Below, piece after piece: positions 7,514 through 50,673 of a stretch of 64,000 nt of DNA. A program made the position numbers and the translations under genes. The DNA is from Streptomyces sp. MJM8645 (lineage in GTDB: Bacteria > Actinomycetota > Actinomycetes > Streptomycetales > Streptomycetaceae), in contig NZ_LJJF01000001.1 of assembly GCF_001625365.1 (NCBI RefSeq), positions 1,860,001 to 1,924,000 on the forward strand, read 5' to 3'. Position 1 is the stretch's first letter; each line of letters begins with the position of its first letter. Below the pieces are notes generated by a model. It made no database searches, had not been told where the DNA came from, and saw nothing but the letters and a program-made list of their open reading frames with translations.

Positions 7514-7731
7514 CCCACTTCCCTGTCGCCTCCGCACTCCCTGTGCAGTGGAAGAAGGCAAGCGCCAGCAACCCGAACGACAACTGCGTCGAAGTAGCAG
7601 CCAGCATCACCGGCATCGTCCCGGTCCGCGACAGCAAGGACCCGCACGGCCCGGCCCTCAGCTTCAGCCCCGAGGCCTGGCAGTCCTTCATCGCCGCCGT
7701 CCAGACGGGCGAGCTCCCGGCAGCTCGCTAG
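7510..7731 (+). CDS. DUF397 domain protein (BldB-cluster type)
   Basis: A 73-aa DUF397 protein. The diagnostic pieces are VQWKKASASNPNDNCVEVA, the VPVRDSKDPHGPALSFSPEAW core and the terminal helix SFIAAVQTGEL. DUF397 proteins are small partners of HTH-DUF5753 regulators in actinomycete development and antibiotic control, and some behave as toxin-antitoxin-like pairs. It starts with GTG overlapping the regulator stop, which implies coupled translation, and is followed by a strong terminator. Confidence 0.9.
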   Translation: MTHFPVASALPVQWKKASASNPNDNCVEVAASITGIVPVRDSKDPHGPALSFSPEAWQSFIAAVQTGELPAAR

Positions 7732-7744
7732 CCTCAACTGTCCT

Positions 7745-7775
7745 GGGCGGCCCCATGCCGAGCACGGGGCCGCCC
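7745..7775 (+). terminator. Hairpin terminator after the DUF397 gene
   Basis: Perfect 10-bp stem GGGCGGCCCC (7745-7754) / GGGGCCGCCC (7766-7775) with an 11-nt loop, 14 bp after the DUF397 stop. There is no clear T tract, as is usual in streptomycetes. Confidence 0.6.
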
Positions 7776-7901
7776 CCGGATTGACGTCCACGCCCGGTCC
7801 ACGACACCGCGCCAAGTGCATCGACTCGCGCTCCCAGCCTTCTTCCAGCGACCTGCCAGCCTCTCATCGACTTCTCATCCGGCACCCCTAGCCTCCGCCA
7901 G

Positions 7902-9161
7902 ATGAACGTCTCCCTGCTCGGCGGCTGGTTCCCCTGGGCCGTCCAGGCCGTGGCCCTCACCCTGTTCCTGGCCGCACTCGGCTGGCGGGACCGGGTCTGG
8001 CGGCTGAAGTGGGGCCCGGTCGCCCTCGGGACGGCGCTGCTGCTCACCGCCCTCGCCGCCGTCGGCGTGCTCACGCTCGCCGGGATCACCGATCCGATCC
8101 CGTTCGGGGTGTGGCTGTGGGGCGGGGTCGCGGTCGCGGCGGTCAGCGCGCTCGGGTTCGGCTGGCGCGGCGCCCGCTGGTGGCGCCGGGCGCTCGCGCC
8201 GCCGGCCGCGCTGCTCGCCCTGTTCTGCGCCGCCAACAGCGTGAACATCGCCACCGGCTACTACCCGACCCTCGACGACGCGATCGGTGAACTGAGCGGG
8301 CAGCCGCTGCCGGAGCAGATCACGCTCGCCGAACTCGGCTCCCTGCACGGGAAGACGAAGACCGGCCGCATCGTCCAGGTGGACATCCCGAGCACGGCCA
8401 GCGGCTTCACCCACCGCCAGGAGCTCGTCTACCTGCCGCCCGCGTGGTTCCGCAGCCAGAACCGGCCGAAGCTGCCGGCGCTGGAGCTGATCGGCGGCGA
8501 GTTCGCCGCGCCCGACAACTGGATCCGCTCCGGCAACGCCGTGAGGACCGCGGACGACTTCGCCGCCAAGCACAACGGTTTCGCGCCGATCCTCGTCTTC
8601 GTCGACGCGACCGGCGGCTTCCGGGTCGACACCGAGTGCGTCGACGGCCCGCACGGCAACTCCGAGAGCCACCTGCTCAAGGACGTCCCGCCGTTCGTCC
8701 AGAAGACCTTCAACGCCGCCACCGACCCGCACAAGTGGGGTGTGGCCGGCTGGTCCATGGGCGGCACCTGCGCCGTCGACCTCACCGTCGAACACCCCAA
8801 CGTCTTCACCCACTTCGGCGACTTCTCCGGCGACAAGGGCCCCTCCACCGGCGACAAGGACCACACCGTCCAGGAGCTGTACGGCGGCGACGCGGCCGCC
8901 TGGGCCGCCCACGACCCGCTGACCGTCCTCGCCCACCACCCCAAGTACCAGGGCGTCTCCGGCTACTTCGGGCAGGGCGACGAGGAGCACGGCCAGATCG
9001 AGTCCGCCAGGGCCCTCAACGACGCCGCCCGGAAGGACGGCATCCGCACCACCACCGCCGTCGGCTCCGGCAAGCACACCTGGCAGACCGGCGCCGCCAC
9101 CTTCGCCCAGGCCCTCCCCTGGCTCGCCCAGCAGCTCGGCGTCCCCGGCACCCACGCCTGA
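7902..9161 (+). CDS. Membrane-anchored alpha/beta-hydrolase (esterase D / mycolyltransferase-like)
   Basis: A 419-aa protein with an N-terminal module of three or four membrane spans (about residues 10-25, 36-60, 66-85 and 92-110) and a C-terminal extracytoplasmic esterase domain. The catalytic serine lies in GWSMGG (Ser285), the His is probably His392 in GKHTWQ, and the acid may come from the GQGDEEHGQ segment near residue 360. The domain begins near residue 135 with GRIVQVDIPSTASGFTHRQELVYLPP, as in the Corynebacterineae mycolyltransferase/esterase family (Putative_esterase). In a streptomycete, which has no mycolates, it more likely hydrolyses or transfers an acyl group at the cell surface. 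It is monocistronic between a terminator and a long intergenic gap. Confidence 0.85.
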   Translation: MNVSLLGGWFPWAVQAVALTLFLAALGWRDRVWRLKWGPVALGTALLLTALAAVGVLTLAGITDPIPFGVWLWGGVAVAAVSALGFGWRGARWWRRALAPPAALLALFCAANSVNIATGYYPTLDDAIGELSGQPLPEQITLAELGSLHGKTKTGRIVQVDIPSTASGFTHRQELVYLPPAWFRSQNRPKLPALELIGGEFAAPDNWIRSGNAVRTADDFAAKHNGFAPILVFVDATGGFRVDTECVDGPHGNSESHLLKDVPPFVQKTFNAATDPHKWGVAGWSMGGTCAVDLTVEHPNVFTHFGDFSGDKGPSTGDKDHTVQELYGGDAAAWAAHDPLTVLAHHPKYQGVSGYFGQGDEEHGQIESARALNDAARKDGIRTTTAVGSGKHTWQTGAATFAQALPWLAQQLGVPGTHA

Positions 9162-44633: not shown

Positions 44634-44719
44634 GCCGGGTTGGTGGAAGGGCAGACACGATCGCCTCAAAAGCGATTGCTCGAAAGGGCGTGTGGGTTCG
44701 AATCCCACACTCGGCACCA
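44634..44719 (+). tRNA. tRNA-Leu (CAA)
   Basis: An 86-base class II tRNA gene with encoded CCA. The acceptor GCCGGGT (44634-44640) pairs with ACTCGGC. The anticodon loop CTCAAAA gives anticodon CAA for UUG, a long variable arm follows, and the T arm is GTGTGGGTTCGAATCCCACAC. A T-rich stretch (AATTTTTCTC) right after it may end transcription. Confidence 0.97.
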
Positions 44720-44820: not shown

Positions 44821-45606
44821 ATGACGTCTCCCTCTGTGCGCGAACAAGCCGTACACCTCCTCCGTCGAGGTGTACGCAATGCCGATGTCGCCCGACGACT
44901 CCGGGTCTCTCCTGGCACGGTCTCCTGGTGGAAGCATCAAGACCTCGCCAAACGCCATCAGCTCCCCGGCCGCAAGCGTTCCACATGCATGCACTGCTAC
45001 GGCGACGACCTGGACCGCGGCGCCTACTCCTACCTACTCGGCCTCTACCTCGGCGACGGCCACATCCTGCTCCCCAACGAGTACCGCAGGACGCAGAGCC
45101 TTCAGATCACCTGTGACGATCACTGGCCGGGAATCACCGACTCCGTCGAAAACGCCATGCGCCTGGTCTTTCCCAGGAACAAGCCCTGCAGAGTCCGACG
45201 GACCGGCTGTCACGACGTCAAGCTCTACTCGAATCACCTGACCTGCCACTTCCCCCAACACGGTCCCGGCAAGAAGCACGAACGCACCATAGCCCTGGAA
45301 CCCTGGCAGCAGGAGATCGTCGACGCCCATCCGTGGGAGTTCCTGCGCGGCCTGATCCACTCCGACGGCTGCCGCATCACCAACTGGACGACGCGAATGG
45401 TCGGCGGCGTCAAGAAGCGCTACGAGTACCCGCGTTACTTCTTCACCAACACCTCGACCGACATCATCGGCCTGTTCACCGCCACCCTCGACGCCGTCGG
45501 CGTCCAGTGGAAGGCCGCGGCCCGGCCGACCGGTGCCACCAATATCTCCGTCGCCCGCAAGGACTCCGTCGCCCTCATGGACGCCCACATCGGCCCCAAG
45601 TACTGA
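44821..45606 (+). CDS. HTH-containing LAGLIDADG homing-endonuclease-like protein
   Basis: A 261-aa protein. The N-terminal helix-turn-helix SVREQAVHLLRRGVRNADVARRLRVSPGTVSWWKHQD is at about residues 5-41 and a possible zinc knuckle CMHC at 57-60. Two LAGLIDADG motifs follow, YLLGLYLGDG (71-80) and FLRGLIHSDG (174-183), each with the acidic residue (Asp79, Asp182) that binds catalytic Mg. No intein splice motifs or intron are seen, so it is free-standing. It lies 102 bp downstream of tRNA-Leu, with a leader of lower GC. It may cleave DNA as a mobile homing enzyme or act as a domesticated regulator. Confidence 0.82.
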   Translation: MTSPSVREQAVHLLRRGVRNADVARRLRVSPGTVSWWKHQDLAKRHQLPGRKRSTCMHCYGDDLDRGAYSYLLGLYLGDGHILLPNEYRRTQSLQITCDDHWPGITDSVENAMRLVFPRNKPCRVRRTGCHDVKLYSNHLTCHFPQHGPGKKHERTIALEPWQQEIVDAHPWEFLRGLIHSDGCRITNWTTRMVGGVKKRYEYPRYFFTNTSTDIIGLFTATLDAVGVQWKAAARPTGATNISVARKDSVALMDAHIGPKY

Positions 45607-47360: not shown

Positions 47361-48437
47361 ATGAGACGCACTCTGGGGGTGTTGGCGGCGTTGGCCCTGC
47401 TGGGCGGGGTGACGTACGCACTGATCCCGCAGGACGACCCGGGCGGCGACATCGTCACCGTCTCCGGCCTGATCGGTTCGGAGAAGCGCGACTTCTTCCA
47501 GGATCCGCAGGTCGTCGCCGAGTTGGCCAAGCAGGGCATGAAGGTGAACGCGGAGAGCATCGGCTCCTGGCTGATGGACGGCGACGCGAAGGACTTCGCG
47601 TTCCCGGCCAGTCAGCCGCCGGCCGACAAGCTGCGCGTGGACTGGAACATCAAGGAGGTCCCGGTCCAGCCGTTCTACTCGCCGCTGGTGATCCTCGCGC
47701 ACCGCCCGGTGGCGGATGTCCTGATGGGCAACGGCCTGGCCACCCTGGACCATTCCACCGGGCTGTGGACGTTCCGGATGGACGCCTACCTGGCCGCGCT
47801 GAAGGCCGGCCGCACCTGGCCGGACCTCGCGGGCGCGACCGAGCACGCGGAGTTGAAGGGCCCGGTGTTCCTCACCACCACCGACCCGGAGACGTCCTCC
47901 TCGGGGGCGCTGCACATCGCCCTGCTGTCGTACCTGTTGAACAACCGCCAGGTGGTCTACGACCAGGCCGGGATCGACGCCACCAAGGACGTGCTGCGCA
48001 CGGCGACGGCGATCCAGGGCGGCCAGAAGAGCAGCAGCGACGAGCCGTTCAAGGCCTTCCTGGCCGGGGTCGGCAATCCGCTGGTGCTCGCGTACGAGTC
48101 GCAGGCCGCCGCGATGGTGCTGAAGGGCGAGTCGACCGGCGACATGGTGGTGCTGTACCCGGACACCACCATCTACACCGACCACACCATCGTCGGCCGC
48201 ACGCCGAACGGCCGGCGGCTGGCCGCCCAGCTGCACGACAACGCCGAACTGCGCCGGCTGGAGGCGAAGTTCGGCTTCCGTCCGCAGGACGACCCGGATG
48301 CCTTCGCCGCGCTGGTGAAGGGCAAGACCCCGGTCCTGGCGCCCAATCTCGCGGCGGCGAAGGTCAACCAGCCGCAGATTCCCGTGCCCGACATCCTGAC
48401 CAGGCTGATCAAGGCCGCCAAGGGGAAGGCTCAGTGA
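47361..48437 (+). CDS. Membrane-anchored extracellular solute-binding-like protein
   Basis: A 358-aa protein with one N-terminal signal/anchor helix (MRRTLGVLAALALLGGVTYALI) and no lipobox. It has a type II solute-binding fold: DIVTVSGLIGSEKRDFF, QPFYSPLVILAHRPVADVL, TWPDLAGATEHAELKGPVFLTTTDPETSSSGALHIALLSYLL (the SxSG ligand segment), GDMVVLYPDTTIYTDHTIV. It resembles molybdate/sulfate-type binding proteins, but no permease or ATPase lies nearby. It starts after GGGGGAGG and overlaps the SBP-VWA gene by GTGA, so the two probably function together outside the membrane. Confidence 0.75.
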   Translation: MRRTLGVLAALALLGGVTYALIPQDDPGGDIVTVSGLIGSEKRDFFQDPQVVAELAKQGMKVNAESIGSWLMDGDAKDFAFPASQPPADKLRVDWNIKEVPVQPFYSPLVILAHRPVADVLMGNGLATLDHSTGLWTFRMDAYLAALKAGRTWPDLAGATEHAELKGPVFLTTTDPETSSSGALHIALLSYLLNNRQVVYDQAGIDATKDVLRTATAIQGGQKSSSDEPFKAFLAGVGNPLVLAYESQAAAMVLKGESTGDMVVLYPDTTIYTDHTIVGRTPNGRRLAAQLHDNAELRRLEAKFGFRPQDDPDAFAALVKGKTPVLAPNLAAAKVNQPQIPVPDILTRLIKAAKGKAQ

Positions 48438-50077
48438 ACTCCCGGATGAAGAAGCACAGTTGGACGGTCGCCGCGCTGGCGACCCTGCTGGCGGCCGCCG
48501 CCTGCACCTCCACCCCGCCGGGCCCGAAGCCGTCCGACCCGCCGGCCACGACGGCGCAGCCGGGGGTGCTGCGGGTGCTGGCCGGCAGCGAGCTGCAGGA
48601 CCTGGCGCCGATCCTGGAAGACGCCAGGAAGGCGACCGGGGTGACGGTGCAGTTCTCCTGGACGGGCTCGCTGGACGGCGCGGACGCGGTGTCCTCGGGC
48701 CGGGCGGACGGCAAGTACGACGCGGTGTGGTTCCCGTCCAACCAGTACCTGCGGCTGGATGACGCGGGGAAGTCGAAGGTGCTGTCGGAGACGCCGGTGA
48801 TGGTGTCGCCGGTCGCGGTGGGGGTTCGCTCCTCGGTCCTCAACGAGCTCGGCTGGGGGGACGGTTCGAAGGTCTCCTGGGCGCAGATCGGGGATGCGGC
48901 GTCGGCCGGGAAGCTGGCGTACGGGATGGCGGACCCGTCCCGGTCGAACTCGGGCTTCTCGACGCTGGTGGCGGTGGCGTCGGCGTTCTCGGGTGCGGGG
49001 GCGGCGCTGACCGAGGGGGACGTGCAGAAGGCGGCGCCGCAGTTGAAGCAGTTCTTCACCGGCCAGAAGCTGACGTCGGGTTCCTCGGGCTGGCTGGCGC
49101 AGGCGTACACCCGGGCGGAGCCGGGCAAGGTCGGGGCGCTGGTGAACTACGAGTCGGTGCTGCTGTCGATGAACAAGTCGCTGGCGGCGGACCAGCAGTT
49201 GACGGTGATCCGCCCGGTGGACGGGGTGGTGTCGGCGGACTATCCGCTGTCGTTGCTGTCCTCGTCCGCGCAGCGGGAGCGGGACTCCTTCCAGCGGTTG
49301 ACGGCGTACCTGTTGAAGGAGGACGTGCAGAAACGGATCTCCGAGGTGACGCTGCGCCGCCCGGTGGCGCCGGGGGTGTCGCCGGCGGCCGGGCTGCCGG
49401 CGGACCGGCGGCGGGAGCTGCCGTTCCCGGGGAGCCGGGCGGTGGCGGACGGGCTGCTGGCCTCGTACCAGAACGAGCTGCGGCGGCCGTCGCGGACGGT
49501 GTACGTGCTGGACACCTCGGGGTCGATGGAGGGTTCGCGGATCTCGGCGCTGAAGTCGGCGCTGGGCCGGTTGACGGGGGCGGACGACACCCGGGCGGTG
49601 CGCCGGTTCCGGGACCGCGAGGAGGTGACGCTGATCTCCTTCGCGTCGAAGGTGAAGTGGGCGAGGACGCACGCGGTGCCGGCCTCGGGGAGCAAGCCGG
49701 GTCCGGAGGCGGAGCTGGCGTCGATCAACGCGGACGTGCAGTCGCTGGCGGCGTCGGGGGGTACGGCGCTGTACGACTCGCTGGAGGAGGCGTACCGGGT
49801 GATCGACCGGCAGCAGTCGGCAGCGGGGGACGACCGGTTCACGTCGATCGTGCTGATGACCGACGGGGAGAGCAACGAGGGGGCTTCGGACGGGGACTTC
49901 AAGCGGTTCCACGACGGGCTGCCGTCCGGGCAGAAGTCGATCCCGGTGTTCCCGATCAAGTTCGGGGAGGCGGCGGTGGGCCAGTTGCAGGGGATCGCGG
50001 ACGTGAGCGGCGGCAAGCTGTTCGACGGGTCGGGTTCGCTGGACGGGGTGTTCGAGGAGATTCGTGGCTACCAGTGA
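48434..50077 (+). CDS. Lipoprotein with solute-binding and von Willebrand A domains
   Basis: A 547-aa lipoprotein (GTG 48434, lipobox LLAAAAC with Cys24). Residues ~45-310 form an extracellular solute-binding domain (VLRVLAGSELQDLAPILEDARKATGVTVQFSWTGSLDGAD, ADPSRSNSGFSTLVAVASAF). A linker with RRELPFPGSRAV follows, then a VWA domain with an intact MIDAS: DTSGS at 360-364, Thr444 in ASGGTALYD, Asp477 in LMTDGES. The VWA domain should bind a protein partner through a divalent metal, so this may be a ligand-gated adhesion or assembly protein at the cell surface. It is coupled to both neighbours. Confidence 0.85.
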   Translation: MNSRMKKHSWTVAALATLLAAAACTSTPPGPKPSDPPATTAQPGVLRVLAGSELQDLAPILEDARKATGVTVQFSWTGSLDGADAVSSGRADGKYDAVWFPSNQYLRLDDAGKSKVLSETPVMVSPVAVGVRSSVLNELGWGDGSKVSWAQIGDAASAGKLAYGMADPSRSNSGFSTLVAVASAFSGAGAALTEGDVQKAAPQLKQFFTGQKLTSGSSGWLAQAYTRAEPGKVGALVNYESVLLSMNKSLAADQQLTVIRPVDGVVSADYPLSLLSSSAQRERDSFQRLTAYLLKEDVQKRISEVTLRRPVAPGVSPAAGLPADRRRELPFPGSRAVADGLLASYQNELRRPSRTVYVLDTSGSMEGSRISALKSALGRLTGADDTRAVRRFRDREEVTLISFASKVKWARTHAVPASGSKPGPEAELASINADVQSLAASGGTALYDSLEEAYRVIDRQQSAAGDDRFTSIVLMTDGESNEGASDGDFKRFHDGLPSGQKSIPVFPIKFGEAAVGQLQGIADVSGGKLFDGSGSLDGVFEEIRGYQ

Positions 50078-50642
50078 CGGGGCCGGCCGGCGGGTGCTGC
50101 GGTACCTGGAGTCGGCCCGGAACCTGGTCGGCTGCGGGGGCGGCGCGGTGGGGCTGGGGCTGCACTTCGCCGGGCTGGGCGGGGCGTGGTGGCCGGCGGT
50201 GGTGGCGGGGCTGTACGGGGCGGGCGCGCTGCTGACGCCGGGCCCGCGGACGGAGCCGCCCGTCGTCCTGCCCGTGGAGCCGCCCGTCGATCCGCTGGCG
50301 CCTCCGCTGCCGTCGACGCCCAGGCCGGAACCGACGCCCAGGTCGGAACCGGAGCCCGCACCGGAACCCGCACCGCGGCCCGATCCCGAGCTCGCGGCGC
50401 TGTCCGACTACCTGGCCACGGTGCCGCTGCCGGATTCGGCGGGGGTGGCGGGCCTGCTGGCGGCGCTGCGCTCGGCGGGGCCGGGGCCGGTGCCGGCGGA
50501 GATCGTGCGGCACCGGCTGCCGGTGGCGGTGGCCGGCTACCTGCGGGCGCTGACCTGGCGGCCGTGGGCGGGGCCGGACGCGCCGGACCCGGAGGCGGAG
50601 CTCGGCCGCGAGGTGCGCCGGCTGGTCGCGGAGCTGAACTGA
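50064..50642 (+). CDS. Membrane protein with proline-rich linker, third gene of the SBP/VWA operon
   Basis: A 192-aa protein from GTG 50064 (AGGAG at good spacing), overlapping the VWA gene by 14 bases. A hydrophobic region of about two helices (LVGCGGGAVGLGLHFAGLGGAWWPAVVAGLYGAGALL, residues ~20-58) precedes a Pro/Glu-rich linker (residues ~60-110). The C-terminal helical domain is ELAALSDYLATVPLPDSAGVAGLLAALRSAGPGPVPAEIVRHRLPVAVAGYLRALTW. I recognise no family. Its position suggests it anchors or assists the two extracellular proteins. Confidence 0.7.
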   Translation: MATSDGAGRRVLRYLESARNLVGCGGGAVGLGLHFAGLGGAWWPAVVAGLYGAGALLTPGPRTEPPVVLPVEPPVDPLAPPLPSTPRPEPTPRSEPEPAPEPAPRPDPELAALSDYLATVPLPDSAGVAGLLAALRSAGPGPVPAEIVRHRLPVAVAGYLRALTWRPWAGPDAPDPEAELGREVRRLVAELN

Positions 50643-50643
50643 G

Positions 50644-50673
50644 GGTCCTGCCTGAAAAAGCCCAGGCAGGACC
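50644..50673 (+). terminator. Terminator of the SBP/VWA operon
   Basis: Perfect 11-bp stem GGTCCTGCCTG (50644-50654) / CAGGCAGGACC (50663-50673) with an A-rich 8-nt loop immediately after the third gene. Confidence 0.8.

Follow-up and report, generated by a model that had tools for sequence, protein, structure and literature searches.

What might a pair of solute-binding proteins do when no transporter is encoded beside them? The question is raised by three coupled genes, here called A, B, and C, at positions 47361 to 50642 of a 64,000-nucleotide stretch of Streptomyces sp. MJM8645 (contig NZ_LJJF01000001.1, positions 1,860,001 to 1,924,000; we refer to this whole stretch as the window). The host genome is actinobacterial, with 9.23 Mb in five contigs, and its genus is taken here as Kitasatospora. 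An earlier note on this DNA had read the three genes as an operon for a ligand-sensing surface complex with no permease or ATPase of its own. The coordinates hold, with A overlapping B and B overlapping C, and the idea of a ligand-sensing surface complex is still the one that fits best, no transporter partner having been found. The key information comes from outside the window: the TelA protein that usually accompanies these genes is missing here, and protein C is altered to match. We propose that A and B form a transporter-free extracellular receptor that C normally links to TelA in envelope stress, and that the TelA arm has been lost in the window's genus; we would give this reading a probability of roughly 45%.

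What is the natural unit?

The note regarded the trio as a unit in its own right, and this part of its account is not supported. In most of the Streptomyces relatives fetched, a TelA gene (PF05816) lies inside the operon, and in the window the last domain of C is shortened and TelA-partner-like. We compared 80 relatives from named genomes, the best of 371 confirmed and a set biased to near relatives: 63 have A, full-length TelA, B, and C; 11 have A, B, and C; and 4 have A and B. None of the 14 Kitasatospora-type loci in this set has TelA (L065 to L076, L110, and L120, all with a pyruvate kinase [pyk] gene beside A), and full-length TelA is present in 63 of the 66 others. At L121 (Streptomyces calvus), a 99-residue TelA remnant at 7630-7929 lies between A and B, with no C detected beside it, and this is possibly a snapshot of loss. 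L098 holds a partial TelA, and A was not detected there.

Within the family, the link is strict. TelA scores above cut-off in 43 of 297 sampled genomes, and in each of the 43 the gene is the immediate upstream neighbor of B, in the same orientation, with 30-240 bases between the matched stretches (one TelA place was counted per genome; a second short piece in G203 and a below-cut-off match in G158 were excluded). Neither the window's own genome nor any of 70 genomes of its genus has a PF05816 match; the control for this profile search matched in 3 of 14 genomes. B is matched in 48 genomes of the genus, with the window's own among them and with G047 matching only in fragments. A Fisher test of TelA against genus was computed and set aside because the genomes are related.

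The same placement of TelA, flanked by A and B, is seen in L057 and L058 (290.7 and 298.7 bits), which belong to two other families of the class, and in G091, G092, and G395 (two other families). The larger natural unit is A-TelA-B-C, in Streptomyces and two other actinobacterial families. It is important to remember that the tie is strict only in the Streptomycetaceae sample and is not general, because genomes of the class show TelA elsewhere, lack it, or carry it without B. In a class sample of 296 genomes, 11 of the 30 B places outside the family adjoin TelA, and 31 of the 52 genomes with TelA above cut-off also have B (threshold for B, E 1e-40).

Is protein C different where TelA is absent?

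The cytosolic part of C appears to resemble a TelA-partner domain placed on a membrane hairpin. We read it in this way because a homologous open reading frame (ORF) adjoins TelA elsewhere and because of the gene context. We built a profile of the long form of C from 66 proteins, two of which, L200 and L204, have no TelA next to them. Of 20 distinct TelA loci, 16 have a neighboring ORF that this profile matches, with E 9.5e-18 to 6.4e-12 (19 table rows, of which three are re-fetches). The four misses are L167 and L168, where TelA lies beside B, and L156 and L157, with no match.

The window protein falls short of the complete domain, as its tail past the LP motif has 41 residues, compared with 65-78 in the 62 motif-bearing proteins among 63 that accompany TelA (one lacks the motif, and L055 and L056 were left out of the count). 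All 28 Kitasatospora-type rows fall at 39-48 residues (at least three loci were fetched twice), and the two ranges do not overlap. The alignment of Kitasatospora-type C proteins further shows that a Pro-rich linker replaces the helical middle and that the C-terminal helix is missing, "helical" being read here from sequence. In the window, this linker is a stretch of 54 residues with 22 prolines, and none of the aligned C proteins that accompany TelA has such a stretch. At some loci of family f20, the long form of C is retained and TelA is found elsewhere in the genome.

As a separate observation, TelA and a small C-domain protein adjoin a TerD-domain protein at L211:3238-7135, and the same genome has an A-B-C operon elsewhere (L200), without TelA. 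Membership of C in the XpaC family (PF10112) was considered and has no Pfam support: the family matches neither C nor the relatives scanned, nor anything in the window's own genome. A distant kinship is possible.

What do A and B look like?

The description of two solute-binding-type proteins stands, for B by Pfam (SBP_bac_8) and for A by its AlphaFold fold. A has no Pfam or NCBIfam match. Its AlphaFold2 model, with a mean predicted local distance difference test score (pLDDT) of 91.6, has a solute-binding fold that is closest to the sulfate-binding proteins 5um2, 6ddn, and 1sbp (Z 23.0-23.2, root mean square deviation 3.2-3.3). The thiamin-binding protein 2qry follows closely (Z 22.2), and many others come after; because 2qry nearly ties and so many follow, the fold leaves the class of ligand unreadable. 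Judged by fold alone, a small anion may be suggested. Hydropathy in 19-residue windows reaches 2.05 near the N-terminus of A, in windows starting at residues 3-7.

In B, the SBP_bac_8 match of 27.3 bits is barely above the cut-off of 27. The model of B has a pLDDT of 85.2, and its fold matches 4r6y, 3pu5, and 6lkg (E 7.4e-14 to 3.4e-13) span about 300-350 alignment columns, which we read as the first half of the protein. Sequence searches for relatives of solved structure gave 0 matches for A and, for B, matches only within or around the VWA domain. In a profile comparison, hhalign pairs A with the first half of B at a probability of 95.2% (E 2.6e-8), and on this evidence they are homologues. 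A relationship by sequence to E. coli Sbp was rejected for both proteins, as neither hhalign link was significant.

The note had also described a VWA fusion in B with an intact metal ion-dependent adhesion site (MIDAS), and the alignment bears this out. Residues D360, S362, S364, T444, and D477 are invariant in 45 of 45 B proteins (that of the window and 44 chosen from the 80 loci), and Cys24 of the lipobox is identical in all 45; these residues fit the general MIDAS and lipobox patterns. The motif DPxxSxSG of B is likewise fixed in the 45 rows, and the A motifs GSEK, GS, PF, and YE are fixed in 48 rows, with one exception each at two A positions.

An invariant MIDAS on a predicted lipid-anchored, extracellular protein would also suit a MIDAS-dependent adhesin or cell-wall assembly factor, with the solute-binding domains binding wall or polymer fragments, and it is general knowledge that this lineage undergoes complex development. 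However, the usual companion in the family outside the window's genus is TelA, which is presumed to be cytosolic. Moreover, in a second operon described below, the B' proteins of L059 and L060 have no VWA domain in Pfam and that of L061 has none in its matched part, and an A-like partner is kept in each. We consider this explanation unlikely.

Was TelA lost or gained?

We built a tree of B from 58 of 98 rows, thinned by hand; proteins of more than 590 residues were cut to their last 545 residues, and L098 and L121, with partial TelA, were scored as TelA-less. The TelA label changes 8 times on this tree, and the Kitasatospora-type B proteins (17 rows) form one clade with support of 100/100. The long C tail is present in outgroup families, and loss of TelA in the genus is therefore favored; loss, not gain, would explain why the genus is TelA-less.

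Such a loss could have left behind a decaying remnant without function. This would agree with the absence of a B match in 20 of 60 other genomes of the genus, with ratios of nonsynonymous to synonymous substitution (dN/dS) of 0.58-0.77 in C, and with G047, where A and B survive at this site only as fragments. Against this, A and B occur together with a C-like ORF at all 18 same-genus loci fetched (L039 to L056), C being found by tblastn in 16 and represented in L055 and L056 by a diverged overlapping frame, that is, by reading frames only. B is conserved (dN/dS 0.25-0.33), and its MIDAS and the motif residues are fixed or nearly so. The dN/dS values come from a simple counting method applied to high-GC genomes, with three comparisons per gene. 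We think that decay is improbable, slightly more so than an adhesin or assembly role, yet a serious alternative all the same. The broken A and B of G047 (L063:8487-9533) are internally deleted and sit between pyk and a UshA-like gene, so named by eye.

Does a transporter belong to the system?

No permease of family PF00528 is encoded in the window, and the nearest lies about 72 kb upstream of the trio (other permease families were not searched). An ABC-ATPase-like ORF centered within 6 kb of B occurs at only 6 of 130 loci, according to a motif scan that had no positive control and included some short flanks and duplicate fetches. All six lie 4.9-5.9 kb upstream, and all are in Kitasatospora-type loci. 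The earlier note had named a conserved neighboring transporter of the ATP-binding cassette (ABC) type as the discovery that would count against it; such a partner was looked for with the PF00528 profile and the same motif scan, and was not found.

A and B might nevertheless be spare binding proteins working in trans for an ABC transporter whose genes lie elsewhere, as they have the fold of transport binding proteins and the genome holds 83 PF00528 matches in other places. The searches just described, with no such permease within 70 kb, speak against it, as do the conserved companions, which are TelA, C, or a protein that we call D. A VWA fusion and a TelA companion are also a poor fit to transport, and we give this explanation only a small chance.

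What stays constant among relatives?

A second branch of the family has A'-B'-D operons (L147 to L150 and L152), with TelA not in the operon. Protein D has about 250-260 residues and one strong hydrophobic stretch in L148, the only D measured; no Pfam family scored above cut-off in the seven D proteins scanned (that of L150 was left out). Three genomes of the window's genus carry an A'-B'-D operon as a second one, in which B' has only 375-389 residues and is followed by a D-like protein of 260-276 residues; two of these B' proteins were scanned by Pfam and match solute-binding families only (SBP_bac_11), with no VWA domain. In L059, the A' match is split over two called ORFs. Finally, in G192 (L145) and S. 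smaragdinus (L138), A-B was found, but no C or D was detected with it. The A-B pair is the constant element across these arrangements, because it is accompanied by TelA and C, by C only, by D, or by nothing.

This variety, together with the eleven TerD-domain matches kept in the window's genome, could mean that lineages swap the inner partner of a generic receptor, A-B, and that the window's genus uses an unlinked, non-TelA cytosolic one. Against this, no candidate partner was identified and C is without the tail that a docking site should have; we rate this as the least probable of the alternatives.

How might the parts act together?

In the reading that we prefer, A and B would be duplicated solute-binding proteins attached to the outside of the membrane, A through its N-terminal helix and B through its lipid, and the VWA domain of B would bind protein in a metal-dependent manner through its MIDAS. 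The pair would be an extracellular receptor, not the feeder of an ABC transporter. In A-TelA-B-C, protein C would be a membrane hairpin with a cytosolic domain that docks TelA, so that, under envelope or toxic-anion stress, ligand binding outside could be relayed to TelA on the inner side of the membrane. We join the outside receptor through C to TelA because of the gene order and the TelA literature. In the window's genus, TelA would have been lost and the docking helix of C with it, and A-B would remain under selection and work without TelA. A wider claim, that A-B is an actinomycete receptor module free of a transporter, with two paired solute-binding proteins, one MIDAS, and exchangeable membrane partners, and that it is the outside sensor for TelA, is more doubtful, and we offer it only tentatively.

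Several observations weigh against the preferred reading. The weakest point is the membrane hairpin of C, which is weakly hydrophobic in the window protein. The Pro-rich linker of the earlier note is there, but the membrane nature that it assigned to C is poorly borne out: averaged over 17 residues, the two hydrophobic stretches that precede the linker score no higher than 1.35, below the usual cut-off (up to 1.91, and above it, in some relatives), and the sole 19-residue window above 1.4 starts at residue 117, outside the hairpin. C and the relatives scanned match no Pfam family above cut-off. C evolves fast, and so does A (dN/dS 0.53-0.67), for which the hhalign probability of a link to E. 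coli Sbp is 1.3%. G320, a genome without a TelA match, has a full-length C. In the class sample, of the 30 B places outside the family, 11 belong to genomes that have TelA at some other position and 8 to genomes that lack it, and 21 of the 52 TelA-bearing genomes have no B at the threshold given above. The TelA genes that adjoin B are not one clade on the TelA tree, where the rows L154 to L173 are matched stretches, not whole genes (2 changes), and repeated capture is therefore possible; a single origin of TelA beside B has no support.

If the proposal is true, then TelA, which is tied to tellurite and cell-wall antibiotic resistance, would answer a ligand sensed outside the cell. A genus without TelA and without the matching end of C would then be a natural experiment and would point to the site of contact between C and TelA.

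How is the locus laid out?

The features are collected in Table 1. The three genes are probably on one transcript, because A overlaps B and B overlaps C. B has a GTG start and a 4-bp overlap with the stop of A (a later ATG lies at 48446), and C has a GTG start within the 3' end of B. The GC content at third codon positions is 0.94-0.97 in A, B, and C, which is coding-like. The operon had been credited with a terminator of its own. A stable hairpin does follow C (a 61-nt fold of -29 kcal/mol, z -3.57, with 0 of 200 shuffles equally stable), but no T run accompanies it, and it is missing from the output of the terminator scan. No second B was found in the genome, where only short DNA stretches match beyond the locus. 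PADLOC gave no sign of an anti-phage defence system, as 0 of 5 proteins match any of its models.

The flanks scanned in the window hold a response regulator, an unmatched ORF, a pyruvate kinase, and a GH123-type protein. A pyk homologue adjoins A in all 18 same-genus loci fetched. The Streptomyces loci mostly adjoin an aminotransferase (58 of 66) and phosphoenolpyruvate carboxykinase (PEPCK; 57 of 66), as in L079, which is flanked by an aminotransferase, an unmatched ORF, PEPCK, an APH-type kinase, and HlyIII. Because the neighbors differ in this way, the Kitasatospora operons and most Streptomyces operons lie at different chromosomal sites, and shared synteny of the two was rejected. Further upstream in the window, a tRNA-Leu (CAA) gene at 44634-44719 is closely followed by an ORF at 44872-45606; by eye, this resembles a LAGLIDADG homing endonuclease in its motif, and it has no Pfam match at E 1e-5.

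Table 1. Positions of the operon's genes, domains, and motifs in the window, and of A'-B'-D operons in other genomes
Feature	Position	Strand	Description
Gene A	47361..48437	+	358 aa; predicted N-terminal hydrophobic anchor and extracellular solute-binding fold
Gene B	48434..50077	+	547 aa; predicted lipoprotein, solute-binding domain then VWA domain (Pfam)
Solute-binding domain of B	48566..49393	+	About residues 45-320; SBP_bac_8, 27.3 bits
VWA domain of B	49490..50023	+	About residues 353-530; VWA_2 38.5 bits, VWA 37.3 bits
MIDAS DxSxS of B (D360, S362, S364)	49511..49525	+	T444 at 49763-49765, D477 at 49862-49864
Gene C	50064..50642	+	192 aa; putative membrane hairpin, Pro-rich linker, shortened TelA-partner-like domain
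Pro/Glu-rich linker of C	50238..50387	+	22 Pro in residues 59-112
Shortened C-terminal domain of C	50388..50639	+	Stops about 25-30 residues early; 41 residues from LP motif to C-terminus
Hairpin	50644..50673	+	3' of C; 11-bp stem, 8-nt loop; possible terminator, no T run
A'-B'-D operons	L147:8392-12003; L148:8224-11769; L149:7692-11345; L150:7585-11130; L152:7813-10515		Paralogous operons, D instead of C and TelA
Second A'-B'-D operon	L059:8157-11317; L060:7415-10872; L061:8035-11342		In three genomes of the window's genus

How does the system compare with known ones?

No description of the operon was found in the literature searched, and an earlier mention in a 2012 paper on Ter systems is possible. 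TelA is reported to matter for resistance to nisin and wall-acting antibiotics in Listeria (PMC11765107, PMC8865564), and an XpaC-like gene is listed next to telA1 in a Lactococcus transcriptome table, in a paper on the envelope-stress regulator CesSR (PMC3139573). In L. cremoris, the tel locus is tied through a small RNA to tellurite susceptibility (PMC13109727; for further background on tellurite, see PMC4531530). TelA and the vWA protein TerF are called components of Ter systems that form sub-membrane structures (PMC7824862). The text of PMC7159879 and PMC3710099 does not name TelA.

With the TelA/Ter systems, our operon shares the full TelA encoded by its relatives and the C domain, which is common to the small protein beside TelA. 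It differs in that neither the window's genome nor its genus has TelA, and in that an extracellular A-B pair is not among the components named in the available part of PMC7824862. Despite having no TelA, the genome has its eleven TerD-domain matches at C1:2286014-2292352 and in eight other places. Two of the eleven adjoin and are possibly one gene.

The sulfate-, molybdate-, and ferric-type solute-binding proteins have the fold of A (Z 23) and of the first half of B. With E. coli Sbp, hhalign pairs NPKSS-GGA with TDPETSSSGA of A, within an alignment that is not significant overall. Unlike these binding proteins, A and B are encoded in tandem, are fused to VWA (in B), and are linked to TelA, and no permease or ATPase partner was found for them. 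The structure 6lkg, by its title a signal transduction protein of a two-component system and presumably HptA, is a top fold match of both A (Z 20.6) and B (E 3.4e-13). Sensor solute-binding proteins of this kind differ from the present pair, whose operon is without a histidine kinase and whose companion is TelA or C.

Among proteins with VWA and MIDAS, such as co-chaperones, adhesins, and TerF, the common ground is the intact MIDAS of B. No MoxR-type ATPase is present among the nine flanking genes scanned. What sets B apart from these proteins is that its VWA domain is fused to a solute-binding domain in a protein that is predicted to be lipid-anchored.

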